From a virus, in IMG/VR virus record IMGVR_UViG_3300036770_006954, positions 1-64,000 of that record: DNA of 64,000 bases; one strand, 5' to 3'. The notes beneath the pieces are model-generated. The model did not search any database, was not told the DNA's origin, and worked only from the letters and a program-made list of their open reading frames with translations. This document shows, one piece after another, positions 48,294 to 58,266 of the stretch. Position numbers and translations under genes: made by a program. The stretch's first letter is position 1, and the number at the start of each line of letters is the position of its first letter.

Positions 48294-51200
48294 TTAAATA
48301 TTTTCGAAAGAAGCTCCAGTCGGAGTAATTAAAAACTCAATATCAATAAATTCAAGTGCTTTAGTTGGTTTCAAGTAAATCTTTCCTGTCAAAGTGTTTC
48401 TATCCAAATCTTCAGGTGTAGACGCTACTGTAACTCTAAAGTCGTATAAACCACGGTCTCTTCTGATTGCATCCAAGATTGGGTTTACCGAATCCAAGAA
48501 TTGTTGTCTTACAATTTCATCGTTTTGTTCAAACAACAATCTTACCGCAACCGCAGATATCAATTTACGAGCCTGAAGTAATAAACGTCTTACATTCAAT
48601 CTGTTTAGTGCTGTATCTCTAATTTGTAGAGTTTTGTTACCCCAAATTACTGTACCAACATCGGAGAAAGTTGCAATTGGATTCAACCTTCCTTGATAAA
48701 GGGTGTCCCTATCTTCTTGAGTAAGTTTTAATCTCGCCTTCACTGAGTTCACAAGACCTCTTGTGTAACCTGCGGATGCGAACCAAGGGAATGAAATATT
48801 ATCGGTTAACGCTAAGTTTCTACAAACCTGACCTGTTGGTGGTATGTAAATCTGAGTGTTGTTTACAGTATCTCTTTCCAAAATCCATGGGTAATAAGAT
48901 GCGGTGTATGATGAATCTATACCTGTTTGGTCAAGGTTATCTACAGCTTCTTGTGGGTAAATAATTTCAAATTGTGAAGTACCATCATTTGTATACATAT
49001 TGTAGTCTGGTGTGGTCACAATGTATACCGAGTCAGCTCTCTCATTTTCAATCATACCAATTGCTAATTCACAAAGATTTGAATTATTAACATAATCAAT
49101 CCCAGGAGTTGCAAACACATTTATATTTGTTGATTCAGGATTAGCAAACGATAATTGACCCAACAAATATGCGTAGTAATCAGTGTTTGCAAAATCTTGA
49201 GTGTTGTCACCAACAACTATTCGTTTGAAAGTACCATCACCCGATGCGGTTGGATAACGTTGCGTCGGGGTTGCTCCTTGCAAATATCCTGATGCTCCTA
49301 AAGCAAACCTATCTTGGTTTGTTCTGAATTCTCTGTAGATGTCCCATCCATCGAAACCACCTTGGAATACACAAGTAAACTTTCTTGAATACAAGAAATA
49401 ATATGGATTTTCTTGATTTGTAGGTTCGTCATCAAAAGTTGCAACACCACAAACAAAAGCTGGTGTTCCACTTGTAACTTGGGAATTAGTAATTTGGATA
49501 ATTGTTGCACCAGAGTCCATGTGGAAACCTTTGGTTTGATAATTCCAAGGTTCGGAAGTTGTTGCCAAATCCCAACCTACAATAGGATTTTTCTTACCCT
49601 TGTATTGTAATAAATCGGTATCCACACCAAATTGAGAAGAGATGCCCAAATAAGTTCTCCTTACAATATCACCTGATGAAGAAACAATGTTGCTTCCACC
49701 AGCACTTGTGCCAAATGGTGGGTCAAAAATTGTTTCACCCGGGAAAAAATATTTGTTTTTAATAATTGGGAAAGGTGATGGATTACTTGCACTTTCGTAA
49801 ATTCTTTGTTCTAAACCAAAGAAACCACATGGAAGCGCGTCTATTGGATACTCGTCAGAGAGTTCAACCATTATGTAAGCCGAATTCAAAGGATATTCAC
49901 CATCTAAAGAGCCAATTTTTTTAGCAACAAAACTATTTGAACTTGGGTCCATCGTACAGTTAGTGAATTTTTCATAGACTACAGGATTAGCATCTGTGTC
50001 AAAAAAGTCTCTAACTTGAACGTCAAAAGTTAAATTATTAAACGAAATATTTGCTATAGAAATCTTCACCTCAGTGTTAGCTGTGTTACCATCACTTATA
50101 GTGTGGAACCTAAATAATTCAAAAACTTGGTTACCACGAAGTTCGGAAACGAACCAAGGAGTTTTTGGGGTTTGGTATTGTTCTAAGTTCCAAGCAATAC
50201 TAGTGGTTGAAGATTTGTCACGAGCTTCAGGTAATGCAATCATATCACATTTTACACCACGAACGTATCCTTTGTTATACCCATAATTTAGTAACCCCAA
50301 ATAAGACTCCTCCACAAAGATTGGAACATCTTGTCTTGGTTTAGAAAAATTGGTTATCCCCAAAACTTTGGTGATGTAATTTGCACTTGTTGAATCAAAA
50401 GATGCATCAAAAGCAAAAGTTTTACCCTCGAAAGTAACACCACTTAGTTGGAATGTAGCAAAAGGACTTGAAGAAACACCCGAATAAGCTCCATCACACA
50501 CGAGTTGTAAATCGGTTAAACCTGTAACTTGGTATTGTGGTCCGTGGTCATTAGCATCATAAATAGAAATACCTCTAGAACGAATTGTAGCTAAAATCAA
50601 ATTATTCCAATCTGAATAAGCACTTCCCGAATAAGTAAATAATTGTCCTGTTAAAGTACCTGAGAAAAATCCTGACGCACCCGTCACAAAATTAGTAACA
50701 GTATTGTACCAAGAGTAACCCGTATAAATGTTGCCTGAGGTAACATCAAAAGTTGCATAATACCAAGGGTCGTTACTACCTGAAGTTAAGTCCGCAAAAT
50801 CAACATTAACATTATCTACACCAAAAACGTTATCAAAAAGAGGATACGTCGTGTTAAGACTTGTATATGTGGAATTAGGAATGGACCCATAAACATTTAC
50901 TGTCGAAGCTGAAACAGAGGTGTTAGCGGAAATACTAAGCATAAACTGAAATAAATCGCTCGAGTAATTGGATGTTGACCCATCGATAAGCGAATATTGT
51001 GTATTCAAGTTGTTACTTATCAATGCAGGTAAAGCACTTGTAAATCCTATAGTGGTACCACTTGTATTACCAGTAAAGGTTGCCGAAAATGAAACAGTTG
51101 ATGCAGTTGTATTAATACCAACAGAACAACCTGCCACGTTAGCAATTGCTTGGATATTCCAAGACGGACCCGCATCGTAACCTGACAATCCCAAAATTCT

Positions 51201-51500
51201 AGTAACAAATAATTGATTGGATTGTTGAAGGTAAGCTTTAGCGATATAAGCGGCTTCGTATTTAGGGATTTGTGTGTTGATAAATTTTGTTGGAACAGTT
51301 CCACCAAAAAAAGTTTGGAATTCGTCAAAATTTGTTATAAAAATTGGTTCGAATGCCGGTCCCTTTAGAGTCTCACCTACCAAACCCAAAGTGGTTACAC
51401 CCACACTTTGTGCAACAAATGATAAGTCCGTTTCAGAAGTATAAACTCCTGGTGATACGAAAACTTTTTGATTTGCTTGTGATGTTAATTGAAAAAACAT
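48294..51500 (-). CDS. Tail sheath protein, T4 gp18-like, enlarged
   Basis: This is a 1068-aa protein, against 659 aa for T4 gp18. The N-terminus (KVFVSPGVYTSETDLSF, then VGETLKGPAFEPIFITNFDEFQTFFG) and the C-terminal ~190 residues (LNVRRLLLQARKLI, then FDIRRD-type IRRDRGLYDFRV and GKIYLKPTKALEFIDIEF) are the conserved sheath core that contracts around the tube. The extra ~400 residues lie between them and are Ser/Thr/Tyr/Asn-rich and beta-like, probably surface-exposed decoration domains. A late-type box is 34 nt upstream and a strong terminator follows. Confidence 0.9.
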   Translation of the reverse strand: MFFQLTSQANQKVFVSPGVYTSETDLSFVAQSVGVTTLGLVGETLKGPAFEPIFITNFDEFQTFFGGTVPTKFINTQIPKYEAAYIAKAYLQQSNQLFVTRILGLSGYDAGPSWNIQAIANVAGCSVGINTTASTVSFSATFTGNTSGTTIGFTSALPALISNNLNTQYSLIDGSTSNYSSDLFQFMLSISANTSVSASTVNVYGSIPNSTYTSLNTTYPLFDNVFGVDNVNVDFADLTSGSNDPWYYATFDVTSGNIYTGYSWYNTVTNFVTGASGFFSGTLTGQLFTYSGSAYSDWNNLILATIRSRGISIYDANDHGPQYQVTGLTDLQLVCDGAYSGVSSSPFATFQLSGVTFEGKTFAFDASFDSTSANYITKVLGITNFSKPRQDVPIFVEESYLGLLNYGYNKGYVRGVKCDMIALPEARDKSSTTSIAWNLEQYQTPKTPWFVSELRGNQVFELFRFHTISDGNTANTEVKISIANISFNNLTFDVQVRDFFDTDANPVVYEKFTNCTMDPSSNSFVAKKIGSLDGEYPLNSAYIMVELSDEYPIDALPCGFFGLEQRIYESASNPSPFPIIKNKYFFPGETIFDPPFGTSAGGSNIVSSSGDIVRRTYLGISSQFGVDTDLLQYKGKKNPIVGWDLATTSEPWNYQTKGFHMDSGATIIQITNSQVTSGTPAFVCGVATFDDEPTNQENPYYFLYSRKFTCVFQGGFDGWDIYREFRTNQDRFALGASGYLQGATPTQRYPTASGDGTFKRIVVGDNTQDFANTDYYAYLLGQLSFANPESTNINVFATPGIDYVNNSNLCELAIGMIENERADSVYIVTTPDYNMYTNDGTSQFEIIYPQEAVDNLDQTGIDSSYTASYYPWILERDTVNNTQIYIPPTGQVCRNLALTDNISFPWFASAGYTRGLVNSVKARLKLTQEDRDTLYQGRLNPIATFSDVGTVIWGNKTLQIRDTALNRLNVRRLLLQARKLISAVAVRLLFEQNDEIVRQQFLDSVNPILDAIRRDRGLYDFRVTVASTPEDLDRNTLTGKIYLKPTKALEFIDIEFLITPTGASFENI

Positions 51501-53413: not shown

Positions 53414-53809
53414 ATGGAACTCATCTTACCAACTAAGATTTCGGTCAAACCAAGTGATATACATGGATTGGGAGTTTTTGCCACCCAAAAAATTTCAAAA
53501 GGTGAAGTTATTGAAGAAACTGCTCTTTTGGAACTCCCAATTCAAAAAGGAGAAAGAAGTACTCTTCTTATGAATCACCGTTATGTTTGGCCAAAAGGGG
53601 CTGAGTGGTATTGTCATGTGGTTGCCTTAGGTTGTGGTTCGTTATACAATCATTCTAATACACCTAATGCTGATTGGAATAATAATCTTGAAAATAATTC
53701 ATTTTTATTTACCGCGCTTGAAGACATAGAACCTGGTGAAGAAATTTTCGTTTATTATGGAGATGAAACATTTTGGGCAGATGGGAGGTCAAATATTGAA
53801 ATTAAATAA
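53414..53809 (+). CDS. Minimal SET-domain protein (putative lysine methyltransferase)
   Basis: This 131-aa protein is almost only a SET domain. It has HGLGVFATQKISKGEVI (G18-x-G20, the S-adenosylmethionine loop), LYNHSNTPNADW (N79-H80-S81 and P84-N85, the pseudoknot motif) and EDIEPGEEIFVYYGDE (catalytic-tyrosine region Y114/Y115). The length is close to the algal-virus vSET. SET enzymes methylate protein lysines; the target here is unknown, with host or phage DNA-binding proteins as candidates. It is joined to the SNF2-type helicase by a TAATG overlap, so the two are probably co-translated. It is driven by a sigma70-like promoter, suggesting early action. Confidence 0.85.
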   Translation: MELILPTKISVKPSDIHGLGVFATQKISKGEVIEETALLELPIQKGERSTLLMNHRYVWPKGAEWYCHVVALGCGSLYNHSNTPNADWNNNLENNSFLFTALEDIEPGEEIFVYYGDETFWADGRSNIEIK

Positions 53810-55563
53810 TGCCGATTGGAACAACAATAGAATCCAAAGCCATCTCAATTTTAGAGAACTACTCGGGGGCTAACAATTATATCTTGGGATTAAAAGTCAA
53901 ACTTGACAAAAACTCCAAGTTTTATCCTACGCGTAGTCAATCGGAATACATCATTAATAATCACTCCAAGACCCCCCTTGTTGCAAAAAAGTGGGTGGTC
54001 TTGGATTCTTATTTCGCAAATAAAATTGCAGATGAAAGATTTATGATGACAATTCCCGAGAGGATTTGGATTGAAAAATTGTTGGCAGAAAAAGACAAAG
54101 CCTATCACATTTGGGGAAAGTTTTCTGAAGGAGACCAACTTACCGACATGTGGATTCCTAAAGTAGCAATTATAAAAGACAATAAAGTTGAAATCTCTGA
54201 GGTGGATTACTCCAAGTATTCACACCGTCCACCCCTTGAACACCAAAAGGTTGCTATCGAAGAACTTTTAAAAAACAAGAAGTATATTTTGGCGGATGAC
54301 ATGGGATTGGGAAAGACCACCTCAACGATTATCGCCTCATTAGAAACGGGGACAAAAAAGATTTTGATTATTTGTCCAGCATCACTAAAGATTAACTGGC
54401 AAAGAGAATATCAACTTTACTCGGAAAAGACCAGCTTTGTTTGTGAGGGTAAGAATTATTCGGAAGACGCTGAAATTGTGATAATGAATTATGACATAAT
54501 CAAAAATTTCCACGATTCAAAAGACAGAAAGAATTCAATTATTCTGAACTCAAAGTTTGATTTGGTTATTATTGATGAGGCCCACTACATCCAAAATGTT
54601 CAAGCTCAAAGAACCAAATTAATCAATGACTTGGTAAGGGATATCGACCGTTTGTGGTTGTTAACGGGAACACCTATGACCTCTCGTCCTATTAACTACT
54701 TCAATCTTTTGTCGTTGGTGGATTCACCCGTTGCTAAGAATTGGATGGCGTATGTTGTTAGGTACTGTTCAGGTTATCAGTTCAAAGTTGGTCCAAGAAA
54801 AGTTTGGAATGTAATGGGTGCATCCAACTTGGAAGAACTAAGGGACCGAACTTCAACAACAGTTCTTAGAAGATTGAAAGAGGATGTTTTAGATTTACCC
54901 GAAAAAATTATCACTCCTGTCTACCTTCGTCTCCGTTCAAAACTTTATGAAGAGGTAATGGGTGATTATTACAATTGGTATGAAAAAAATCCTGAGGAAA
55001 GTAAAAACCTCTCGATTCAGTTCACTAAACTAACTCAGGTAAGACAAGTGATTGCTGAGGAAAAAACTCAACATACAATCGAACTCGCAGAAAACATTGT
55101 CGAGCAAGGAAAAAAAGTTATCATTTTTTGTAATTTCACTAAATCACTTGAAACCATCGTCAATCACTTTGGTAAAAGTGCTGTGAGGTTAGATGGGTCG
55201 ATGAGTAAAATTCAAAGACAAGATGCGGTTGACAGGTTTCAAGAGGATGATAAAGTAAAAGTATTTGTGGGGAACATCAAAGCTGCGGGTGTCGGGATTA
55301 CCCTAACCGCAGCAGAAGCGGTCATTATGAATGACCTTTCATTCCTTCCTTCAGACCACAGTCAATCTGAAGATAGGGCATACAGATACGGACAAAAAAA
55401 TAATGTTTTGGTGTACTACCCTATTTTCGAAAACACAATCGAGGGTATCATTTACGACATATTAAACACCAAAAAAAGAATAATAGCCACAGTTATGGGT
55501 GATACCCCTGATGAGACAAATATTGTTGAAGAAATTCTAAAGAGTATAAATCAGAGGAGATAA
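53809..55563 (+). CDS. SNF2-family DEAH helicase/translocase
   Basis: This is a 584-aa protein. An N-terminal ~140-residue domain precedes the motor. Walker A is DDMGLGKT (163-170), the DEAH box is at 256-259, motif III is LTGTPM (285-290), and the C-terminal lobe has VRLDGSMSKIQRQDAVDRF and SEDRAYRYGQ, the SNF2 motif VI. The family resembles SMARCAL1-like annealing helicases and phage UvsW-position helicases, so replication-fork remodelling or branch migration is likely. No nuclease domain was seen. It directly follows the SET gene. Confidence 0.88.
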   Translation: MPIGTTIESKAISILENYSGANNYILGLKVKLDKNSKFYPTRSQSEYIINNHSKTPLVAKKWVVLDSYFANKIADERFMMTIPERIWIEKLLAEKDKAYHIWGKFSEGDQLTDMWIPKVAIIKDNKVEISEVDYSKYSHRPPLEHQKVAIEELLKNKKYILADDMGLGKTTSTIIASLETGTKKILIICPASLKINWQREYQLYSEKTSFVCEGKNYSEDAEIVIMNYDIIKNFHDSKDRKNSIILNSKFDLVIIDEAHYIQNVQAQRTKLINDLVRDIDRLWLLTGTPMTSRPINYFNLLSLVDSPVAKNWMAYVVRYCSGYQFKVGPRKVWNVMGASNLEELRDRTSTTVLRRLKEDVLDLPEKIITPVYLRLRSKLYEEVMGDYYNWYEKNPEESKNLSIQFTKLTQVRQVIAEEKTQHTIELAENIVEQGKKVIIFCNFTKSLETIVNHFGKSAVRLDGSMSKIQRQDAVDRFQEDDKVKVFVGNIKAAGVGITLTAAEAVIMNDLSFLPSDHSQSEDRAYRYGQKNNVLVYYPIFENTIEGIIYDILNTKKRIIATVMGDTPDETNIVEEILKSINQRR

Positions 55564-55578
55564 TCAGTAAATGTCTAT

Positions 55579-55586
55579 TATTTATA
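55579..55586 (+). promoter_or_regulatory. Late-type box TATTTATA before SOD-nuclease fusion gene
   Basis: The sequence CTATTATTTATAGAG lies 17 nt upstream of the ATG at 55604, on the plus strand and in the same gene-relative orientation as the leftward boxes. Confidence 0.5.
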
Positions 55587-55603
55587 GAGAAATAATATAG
55601 ACC

Positions 55604-57130
55604 ATGCAACATATACAAGAATCAGTAGAGAAGATAGAAAAACAAATTCTTCACGAACAAAAAAGAGAACAAGCCAAAGAACTTTTACAAGAGGGAAAAA
55701 AAATCGGAATAGAAAAATTACCCTACAGTTACTCAGCGGTAAAAAGATTTATCGACTCCGAAACAATGAATGTCCACTACAACAAACACTACAAAGGTTA
55801 CGTGGATAAACTCAACAACTTGTTATCAAAAAGAAAAGGTGACCATGACCTTGAAAAAATAATCAGAAGTATTTCAAAGTATCCCAAAGGAGTAAGAGAT
55901 AACGCAGGTGGTGCATTTAACCACGCACTTTTTTGGAATATGTTATCTCCCCAACCACAAAGAATTGGTAAGGAGTTACTTACAAAAATCAAAAAAGATT
56001 TCGGAACATTCGAGAAATTTAAAAAACAATTCGAAGAAGTTGCCAAACAAAGATTCGGTTCAGGATGGGTGTGGTTAATCCTCACCAACAAAGGAACCCT
56101 TAAGATTATGTCAACCCCCAATCAAGATAATCCATTGATGAATGTCATTGAAGGCGGCGGATATCCACTTTTAGGCTTAGATTTGTGGGAGCATGCATAC
56201 TACCTCAAATACAAAAACAAAAGAGATGAGTACATTAAGAACTTTTGGACTGTGGTCAATTGGGACTTTGTGGAAGATATGTATACACTCAAAACACAAA
56301 CCAAGTTATTGGAGTCACAAGAAATGGGTAAGATACTAATGGAAACAAAATCAGAATCGTGTACAAGGGGTGAAGTAGAGTTCTACCGAGTGTTATTCAA
56401 CAATAACCTCAGAGCAAGAGATATCTACAAGAACACCATTAATGATGTTCTTAGAAAGTTATTTTCAGAGAAGTACCACAACAAAAGAGAAAATGGTGAA
56501 ATACCTGGCGTTTACGATTTAGAAAAACCTGGTCGAAGTGTCATTAACTATATGAATACAAATTACTCAGTTTTTTGTATAATGGTCAGAGACCTGAACA
56601 GGGTAATTACCAAGTCACTCAAGGAAAAGGCGGTAACTTTTGATGGCAAAACCCCTGCGGAACAAATCTCAGAGATGAAGAGACTTTGTAACTACATTGA
56701 ACAATTTAGTCCGAGAATTTTCGACCCGAACAGTCAGACATTCCATTCAATTATGAATACCCTTAAGGAGAAAGACAATGTCGGTACTCGTAGAGAAAAT
56801 ATGGCACAGGTTCGTTTACAGGAAAGTATTCCCAACGCCAAGGTAATCGTAACTGCAGGTGCTGGTAAAACCAAAGATGCAATCAAAAAAATTGACATGG
56901 AAATTGTTGTTGAAAACTCAAAACTTACGGCACAGGTAAAAGGATACGATGAAATTTTGGAACAAGATGGTCGTTTGGTTGTGACTAAGACTGGTGAGGT
57001 TGCAAAATACAATGTCGATTGGATGGTATTTGTTAAGGGTAAAAAAGTGGTTGTTTTCGAAAACAAAGGTGAAATTGTTATGGGTAACTATGTTTTCGCC
57101 AAAAACCAAATGATATACGATTTGAGATAA
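55604..57130 (+). CDS. Mn-type superoxide dismutase fused to putative PD-(D/E)XK nuclease domain
   Basis: This is a 508-aa protein. Residues ~38-228 are a complete Fe/Mn superoxide dismutase with metal ligands H58 (NVHYNKH), H107 (FNHALFW), D193 and H197 (LDLWEHAYY) and gateway Y66. NNAGG-type residues (DNAGG, 99-103) and Q174 in NQDNPLM match Mn-SOD rather than Fe-SOD. Residues ~250-508 form a second domain. Its core E398 (GTRRE), D431 (KKIDMEIVV) and Q444-V-K446 (TAQVKG) resembles a PD-(D/E)XK nuclease. A basic helical segment (1-35) leads the protein. It would convert superoxide to peroxide and oxygen, and the C-terminal activity is inferred. No signal peptide is present. A late-type box precedes it and the gp13-like gene follows. 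The SOD call is secure; the nuclease call is tentative. Confidence 0.88.
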   Translation: MQHIQESVEKIEKQILHEQKREQAKELLQEGKKIGIEKLPYSYSAVKRFIDSETMNVHYNKHYKGYVDKLNNLLSKRKGDHDLEKIIRSISKYPKGVRDNAGGAFNHALFWNMLSPQPQRIGKELLTKIKKDFGTFEKFKKQFEEVAKQRFGSGWVWLILTNKGTLKIMSTPNQDNPLMNVIEGGGYPLLGLDLWEHAYYLKYKNKRDEYIKNFWTVVNWDFVEDMYTLKTQTKLLESQEMGKILMETKSESCTRGEVEFYRVLFNNNLRARDIYKNTINDVLRKLFSEKYHNKRENGEIPGVYDLEKPGRSVINYMNTNYSVFCIMVRDLNRVITKSLKEKAVTFDGKTPAEQISEMKRLCNYIEQFSPRIFDPNSQTFHSIMNTLKEKDNVGTRRENMAQVRLQESIPNAKVIVTAGAGKTKDAIKKIDMEIVVENSKLTAQVKGYDEILEQDGRLVVTKTGEVAKYNVDWMVFVKGKKVVVFENKGEIVMGNYVFAKNQMIYDLR

Positions 57131-57136
57131 TCGCGG

Positions 57137-57144
57137 TATTTATA
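57137..57144 (+). promoter_or_regulatory. Late-type box TATTTATA before gp13-like gene
   Basis: GCGGTATTTATA ends 3 nt before the ATG at 57148 and is identical to the 12-mer before the collagen-like fibre gene. Confidence 0.45.
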
Positions 57145-57147
57145 GGT

Positions 57148-58266
57148 ATGGCTGTATTACCTGAACCCGAAAGAAGTAGAATCTATACACGACTTCGTCA
57201 CCAACTTGGTGCACCATTAAGAGCTGTAGAACTCGAAGATGAAATGTTGGACTCCTTGATGGAATTATCCATTCAAGACTACGAGCAATACACTTTAGAT
57301 TGGCTTATTGAATCTAACTGGGTTAACTTGGTCAACCTCAATATGAACGAGAAATCCGTTGCAAGAGCTTTAGTCACTCGTACTTTTAATTTAGAAGACC
57401 AATTCACATACGCATATTCTAAGATTGTAGGTTTACAAACAACCGGTCCCTATGTTTTGAAAAAGGATTACTTTGTGTTAAGTGCCAACACACAATCTTA
57501 TGAAATTCCTGCAGGACGAGAAATCAATGAACTTTTGTGGTTTTCAAACCAACCATTTCAAAACCTGGCCCTTTGGGGTACAACTGACTATGGATTCGGT
57601 GGTTTAGGGTTGGGTGCTAACCAAGCGGGATATGCACAAATTGGGACCGCAGGGTCTTACTTTATGTTAAGTGGATTTGATTACCTACTCCGTTATCAAG
57701 AAGCAAACATTCTAAACAGAATCTTGGGTGGCGCATTAACTTATAAAATTACAGGTCTTCCTGATGGTAAACGACTGGTAACTCTTTATAATGCACCGGG
57801 TTCAAACTTCTCATGGAGTAATTACTCGGAGTATACAGGTAAAGCGGTTTGGTATTGGTATTATGATGTCGATGGTGACAGCCGTGCTCAATGTATCAAG
57901 GATAATCCTGATATCATCAAGTTACCTTCAGATGTACCTATTGAAGAACTTTCTTGGGAAGATTTGAATGTACCTGCACAACAATGGGTTAGAAAATGGT
58001 TTACCGCTTACGCCAAAGAAACACTAGCCCGAGTAAGGGGTAAATTCTCAGGGAATTTAAAGACTCCAGACTCAGAGCTCCAAATGGATTACCAATCTTT
58101 ATCTACAGAATCTAAAGATGAAAAATCCAAGTTAGAGGAAGAATTGAAGTTAAGATTGGAAAGACTTCGTCCTGAAAAACAAATGGAAAAAGAAGCATTG
58201 TTGGCAGAAAATCTAAACAAACAGATGAAGTTTAGAGCAATGCCAAGACAAATCTATGTAGTTTAA
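57148..58266 (+). CDS. Neck protein, T4 gp13-like
   Basis: This is a 372-aa protein (T4 gp13 is 309 aa). The pattern WVRKWFTAYAKETLARVRGKF followed by GNLKTPDSELQMDYQSL matches the C-terminal helix region of gp13 head-completion proteins. The N-terminal DEMLDSLMELSIQDYEQYT is also typical. A Gly-rich loop (~150-175) looks like an insertion. It closes the filled head and joins it to the tail. It is encoded on the opposite strand from the rest of the tail genes. Confidence 0.75.
   Translation: MAVLPEPERSRIYTRLRHQLGAPLRAVELEDEMLDSLMELSIQDYEQYTLDWLIESNWVNLVNLNMNEKSVARALVTRTFNLEDQFTYAYSKIVGLQTTGPYVLKKDYFVLSANTQSYEIPAGREINELLWFSNQPFQNLALWGTTDYGFGGLGLGANQAGYAQIGTAGSYFMLSGFDYLLRYQEANILNRILGGALTYKITGLPDGKRLVTLYNAPGSNFSWSNYSEYTGKAVWYWYYDVDGDSRAQCIKDNPDIIKLPSDVPIEELSWEDLNVPAQQWVRKWFTAYAKETLARVRGKFSGNLKTPDSELQMDYQSLSTESKDEKSKLEEELKLRLERLRPEKQMEKEALLAENLNKQMKFRAMPRQIYVV

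Follow-up and report, generated by a model that had tools for sequence, protein, structure and literature searches.

A superoxide dismutase joined in one frame to a predicted PD-(D/E)XK nuclease in uncultured T4-like phages

An open reading frame (ORF) on the plus strand of a 64,000-nucleotide stretch of phage DNA (positions 1 to 64,000 of IMG/VR record IMGVR_UViG_3300036770_006954, here termed the window) encodes a protein that very probably consists of a superoxide dismutase (SOD) and a PD-(D/E)XK nuclease domain. A first-pass annotation of the sequence had described a single uninterrupted frame at 55604-57130, and all 508 of its codons are indeed open, specifying 508 amino acids. The fusion is common in T4-like phages of environmental sequence data. 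Its halves come from known superfamilies, and we know of no description of a protein that joins them. The fusion was not found in the open-licence literature on phage and viral SODs, which is no proof of novelty; what it does contain is work on poxvirus SODs and general references that class SOD among auxiliary metabolic genes. The gene is laid out as follows.

55604..57130, plus strand: SOD-nuclease fusion, 508 amino acids (open frame and homologous full-length fusions)
55607..55699, plus strand: N-terminal coiled-coil-like helix, residues 2-32 (AlphaFold2 secondary structure at low confidence, and alignment of N-termini)
55709..56287, plus strand: Mn-type Fe/Mn SOD, residues 36-228 (Pfam PF00081 and PF02777, PDB matches, residue invariance in 104/104)
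55775, 55922, 56180 and 56192, plus strand: codons of the SOD ligands H58, H107, D193 and H197, respectively
56288..56734, plus strand: low-confidence linker, residues about 229-250, followed by the helical region (about 250-377) that opens the C-terminal domain, from AlphaFold2 models
56735..57127, plus strand: predicted PD-(D/E)XK nuclease core, residues 378-508 (invariance in 119/119, Foldseek matches)
56795, 56894, 56933 and 56939, plus strand: codons of the nuclease-core residues E398, D431, Q444 and K446, respectively

A domain does follow the SOD, as had been proposed, but it was given as about 260 residues long. The C-terminal part in fact measures about 280 residues; a helical region comes first, and the nuclease core occupies only the last 130 or so.

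Searching IMG/VR with the full-length protein gave 175 confirmed relatives. Among the best 80 of these, both domains lie in one frame, except at contig ends and at a frame break in one locus, L061. Two further scans with alignments of the C-terminal domain added more divergent members, and the pooled scans hold 222 ORFs with both domains and 20 with the C-terminal domain but no SOD, including the broken half of L061. As several loci share contigs, each distinct sequence is counted once from here on: 112 fused and 15 stand-alone nuclease ORFs for loci, and 104 fused proteins, or 119 fused and stand-alone together, for residue invariance. It had been recognized that the fusion would be suspect if homologues of the two parts were always separate genes; in the viromes, the one-frame fusion is instead the rule among relatives. 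An assembly or chimera error is ruled out by the 104 distinct syntenic fused proteins, the only frame break being that of L061, on a 4.8-kb contig.

The SOD domain is complete. It matches Pfam Sod_Fe_N (E 3e-20, 72.8 bits against a cut-off of 27) and Sod_Fe_C (E 5e-41, 139.3 bits against 20.9), its closest PDB relatives are Mn-SODs, and it is about 45-50% identical to bacterial SODs. The four metal ligands, H58, H107, D193 and H197, show no variation across the 104 distinct fused proteins. Nor do G103, which stands next to G102, and Q174, the Mn-type residues, or the gateway pair H62/Y66, W155, W157, W195, E196 and Y200. From the Mn-SOD alignment and knowledge of the E. coli enzymes, we take G103 to occupy the position of SodB Gln69 and Q174 that of SodA Gln146. 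The earlier claim of a full Mn-type SOD with all four ligands is thus borne out. Since the catalytic residues are fully retained, the domain is most likely an active dismutase. Some SOD matches in phage records (Staphylococcus, Salmonella and similar) were excluded, as the records are short or unannotated and resemble host DNA.

Fe/Mn SODs are dimers, and the equivalents (E196, H62 and Y200) of the residues that bridge the E. coli Mn-SOD dimer (E170, H30 and Y174) are among those that never vary. The SOD fold could accordingly be imagined as nothing but a scaffold on which the nuclease dimerises. A scaffold, however, would have no need of the four metal ligands, the gateway residue Y66 or the Mn-type Q174, all of them invariant, and this explanation is very unlikely.

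The C-terminal domain was modelled with AlphaFold2 from 53 family members, giving a mean predicted local distance difference test score (pLDDT) of 86.5 and a predicted template modelling score (pTM) of 0.81. A Foldseek search of the PDB with this confident model returned a single protein at probability 1.00 (two chains), the PD-(D/E)XK homing endonuclease I-Ssp6803I (2ost); BstEII and RecU came next, weakly. Among viral models, the best match, 32% identical over the entire C-terminal domain, belongs to A0A6J5L953, a 501-residue 'superoxide dismutase' of an uncultured Caudovirales phage, which is evidently the same fusion already in UniProt. A marine phage protein of 1113 residues ranks below it, as do several PD(D/E)XK proteins and some Holliday junction resolvases. 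The predicted core also carries the expected residues: G394, E398, G421, D425, D431, Q444, K446 and Y469 are invariant in all 119 distinct fused and stand-alone proteins, among them the distant copy that stands alone in megaphage LR756501 (735 kb). IMG/VR yielded no close relatives of that megaphage nuclease. The E398...D431...QVK core picked out at first sight is therefore sound, with E398, D431, Q444 and K446 identical throughout. Structure prediction had been suggested as the check on the nuclease fold, and on the strength of these models the domain is very likely to have it.

Against curated families, the C-terminal domain gave sub-threshold profile matches only, with no significant match to a known family. 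DUF6602 was weakly touched by 20 of the 53 members (best E 0.0012) and EcoO109I was reached at E 0.017, both below threshold. PD-(D/E)XK families are often too diverged for profile matches, such that a match of this kind is supporting but not necessary. Searching PDB sequences with a profile built on the C-terminal alignment yielded nothing meaningful, and a pattern scan of 84,980 genomes found no bacterial or archaeal relatives of the domain. Sub-threshold matches of the C-terminal half to PgaPase_1, PHROG and other families were disregarded. Among relatives with measurable synonymous divergence, the ratio of nonsynonymous to synonymous substitution rates (dN/dS) is about 0.03-0.07 for the SOD and 0.03-0.25 for the nuclease core; these low values place SOD and nuclease alike under purifying selection wherever the fusion has been maintained.

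The fusion gene stands in a conserved neighbourhood, which in the window reads:

53414..53809, plus strand: SET-domain protein, upstream of the helicase (Pfam SET, E 1.5e-14)
53809..55563, plus strand: SNF2-family helicase, 584 amino acids, directly upstream of the fusion (Pfam SNF2-rel_dom, E 1.6e-26, and Helicase_C; PHROG 62, DNA helicase)
55579..55586, plus strand: late-promoter-type box TATTTATA before the fusion gene
57137-57144: TATTTATA box before the gp13-like gene
57148..58266, plus strand: gp13-like head-tail adaptor, directly downstream of the fusion (PHROG 211, 'head-tail adaptor Ad2', E 6e-11)

The last of these matches confirms the adjacency to gp13 that had been noticed earlier. 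Where there is enough sequence, the SNF2 helicase lies upstream of the nuclease gene in 114/115 distinct loci, and the gp13-like gene lies downstream in 106/107; the sole exception on both sides is the megaphage LR756501. The nuclease persists without SOD at the helicase/gp13 locus, and the conserved unit is thus helicase plus nuclease at a head-tail locus. The SET gene is present in some relatives only. In the megaphage it directly adjoins the nuclease gene in opposite orientation (L161:5302-5739), at a place where the helicase is missing.

Other insertions occur around this unit. Three relatives carry an intein-like insertion of about 370-390 amino acids placed exactly in the Walker A motif of SNF2 (L015:3097-5958, L025:2626-5547 and L201:1937-4957), with junctions GLGK|C... 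and ...THN|TT, or GLGK|F... in L201. An extra ORF of about 360-380 amino acids separates nuclease and gp13 in L189:5895-6977, L215:5849-7000 and L222:5845-6936; the L215 and L222 products start with an MKILISESQ-like tag, while those of L189 and L222 hold a GxxxE-type stretch, possibly another nuclease.

Given that I-Ssp6803I is the best solved structural match and that mobile elements visit the locus, as the SNF2 inteins and the extra ORFs before gp13 illustrate, the C-terminal domain might be a domesticated homing endonuclease related to I-Ssp6803I that is still, or was recently, selfish. A homing gene would be expected to be sporadic and mobile, whereas this nuclease is under purifying selection and fixed at one site in all relatives of the group whose flanks are available, on the helicase side as on the gp13 side. 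Such an origin with lingering selfishness is highly improbable.

Expression late in infection had been proposed from a box before the gene. In an unbiased 8-mer count over the 60 bases preceding ORFs of at least 120 amino acids, with overlapping stretches collapsed only if their upstream sequences were identical, the top 8-mer was TATTTATA, present in 22/138 upstream regions of this phage and enriched 31-fold over background. It precedes several virion-region genes in the window, and 93/112 distinct fused relatives retain the copy before the fusion gene, where 3.4% would be expected to have one. The longer 9-mer TATTTATAG is not significant by itself in the window (2 found, 0.99 expected). By analogy with T4 late promoters, TATTTATA is read as a late box; its enrichment and its conservation before the gene support late expression. 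An imperfect A/T-rich inverted repeat, GTCTATTATTT ... AAATAATATAGAC, spans window positions 55572-55603 and overlaps the box before the start codon.

The main stand-alone clade (8 representatives, support 100) is nested within fused lineages of the nuclease tree, as is a separate stand-alone protein, L240. SOD has thus apparently been lost at least twice while the nuclease was kept. The polarity of the tree is not secure by itself, since it is rooted on the megaphage, whose branch is very long. The N-termini bear on the same question: in the alignment, the main clade that lost SOD retains the N-terminal helix. Its proteins start with MKNTENKVNLIIEEIKKNETDRK, the same helix as in fused relatives such as L058 (MKNIEEKINLISEEIKKVEKEA), and pass directly to VLSESKAEKC, the segment that follows SOD in the fused proteins. 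As the helix is joined to this segment, SOD seems to have been excised from between helix and nuclease. The phage SODs form one clade (support 100/99) apart from the sampled cellular SODs, which is consistent with a single acquisition, although narrow scan patterns left few cellular SODs for comparison. SOD appears from these comparisons to be an ancient addition that is strongly selected and yet optional, at least two lineages seeming to have dropped it and retained the nuclease.

It is also conceivable that SOD is a protective metabolic gene directed against superoxide in the infected host, and that fusion merely secures late co-expression of two unrelated activities. Unrelated jumbo phages (Vibrio phage 2.275.O and the PA5oct-like Callisto) have SOD as a gene of its own, work on Microcystis viruses interprets a viral Fe/Mn SOD as a buffer against reactive oxygen (PMC12542629), and some lineages do without SOD while retaining the nuclease. 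The stand-alone records that were searched, a 308-kb contig and the megaphage among them, show no separate SOD, however, either beside the nuclease or elsewhere. Moreover, very divergent phages have kept the fusion in one frame, and this speaks for some advantage in physically linking the two. A purely metabolic role is for these reasons rather unlikely.

The late box, the head-tail neighbours, a T4-type prohead protease in the genome and the conserved N-terminal helix would also suit a head-internal protein injected with the DNA, whose SOD protects the incoming DNA and whose nuclease attacks host or competitor DNA early. The stand-alone L240 starts with MKILVSQKQY, resembling a recurrent N-terminal tag, MKILISESQY..., of other proteins in these phages. 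The main N-terminal helix, however, is unlike this tag, and the motif test was weak (9 found against 3.5 expected); injection is unlikely. With so weak an enrichment, a capsid-targeting role of the N-terminal helix was rejected. Recurrent N-terminal tags (MKKVIRLTESDLTRII..EEQ and MKILISESQYKVLVEQ) are found in phage proteins at genome positions 105382, 125705, 126045 and 126638 (L290, L291), and are possibly capsid-targeting or other sorting signals.

The genome record as a whole is 171.6 kb and T4-like, with gp23, gp20, the prohead protease and a T4-type terminase. The SNF2 gene is the only superfamily 2 (SF2) helicase found in it (a single Helicase_C match), RecA-like matches are sub-threshold, and RuvC and RusA gave no match. 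Elsewhere in the genome, the tail sheath protein (window 48294-51500) is unusually long, at 1068 amino acids, with a sheath-family match only in its last 280 or so residues. A sugar-nucleotide and glycosyltransferase island at genome positions 84000-99000 (L288, L289) encodes a GDP-mannose dehydratase, aminotransferases and several glycosyltransferases.

The helicase and head-tail neighbours suggest a part in phage DNA processing around the time of packaging. The fusion and its conservation, the intact motifs of SOD and nuclease, the predicted nuclease fold, the late box, the synteny of helicase, nuclease and gp13, and the relatives with nuclease only are computational results; enzymatic activity, the DNA substrate, cooperation with the helicase and the reason for the SOD fusion are inferred. 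The gene would produce a late bifunctional protein with an oligomerising N-terminal helix, an active Mn-SOD and a nuclease of PD-(D/E)XK fold. The nuclease would be its core function, partnered by the SNF2 helicase encoded immediately upstream, and the pair would act before packaging or in its course to clear or trim phage DNA that is branched, recombining or damaged, filling the place that UvsW and endonuclease VII hold in T4. SOD would have been fused once, early in this phage group, and would remove superoxide where the protein sits on DNA; the natural SOD dimer may also bring two nuclease domains together. Late processing of branched or damaged DNA is favoured by the helicase-nuclease unit, by the late box and by a published proposal that jumbo phages can use Snf2-type helicases in place of UvsW (PMC7824862). 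Taken as a whole, a late DNA-processing helicase-nuclease pair with a tethered SOD is a tentative proposal, put at somewhat below an even chance. Tethering of SOD may give local protection of DNA and metal site, dimerisation, or plain co-expression. The more specific idea that SOD guards a metal-dependent nuclease and its DNA, or that redox state gates cleavage, during late maturation with the SNF2 partner, is doubtful.

Several points weigh against this proposal. The match to 2ost is partial (best E 3e-3, 98 columns, TM 0.46 on the target), and the full-length AlphaFold2 model, with a pTM of 0.52, does not confidently place SOD relative to nuclease. The SNF2 helicase was not found in the megaphage record, and pairing with it is thus not obligatory; synteny alone is in any case no demonstration of joint function. 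Endonuclease VII was not found genome-wide, but the same search matched no control genome, which weakens the argument from a missing resolvase, and an HNH protein of unassigned kind is present. The 171.6-kb record may also be incomplete, further weakening the absence of other resolvases.

The helicase-nuclease pair is nevertheless indicated as a core late function in a large group of uncultured T4-like phages, and its SOD offers a directly testable case of protection from reactive oxygen tied to a DNA enzyme. The name of A0A6J5L953 records only the SOD, the nuclease half being absent from it. Virome annotations of 'superoxide dismutase' may likewise conceal a nuclease, and are not to be counted simply as auxiliary metabolic genes.

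Compared with known systems, the SOD half resembles bacterial Mn-type Fe/Mn SODs (PF00081/PF02777) in being a complete domain with all metal ligands, second-sphere and Mn-type residues. It differs in being joined to a nuclease, in a 4-residue insertion preceding the GLDLWEH motif and in forming a clade separate from cellular SODs. Vibrio phage 2.275.O and Pseudomonas phage Callisto likewise encode Fe/Mn SODs, but theirs are single-domain proteins in unrelated neighbourhoods and distant in the SOD tree. The nuclease half shares with I-Ssp6803I and the PD-(D/E)XK superfamily the E...D...QxK motif and the predicted core fold; it differs in lacking a significant sequence match, in its extra helical region and in not being a mobile-intron gene. 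In its proposed role, the closest parallel is T4 UvsW with endonuclease VII (gp49), an SF2 helicase and a junction-cutting nuclease that act before packaging. T4 endonuclease VII is of the His-Me/HNH type, and the fusion protein has no Pfam Endonuclease_7 match; here the corresponding pair would consist of an SNF2-type helicase and a PD-(D/E)XK nuclease that carries an SOD domain.
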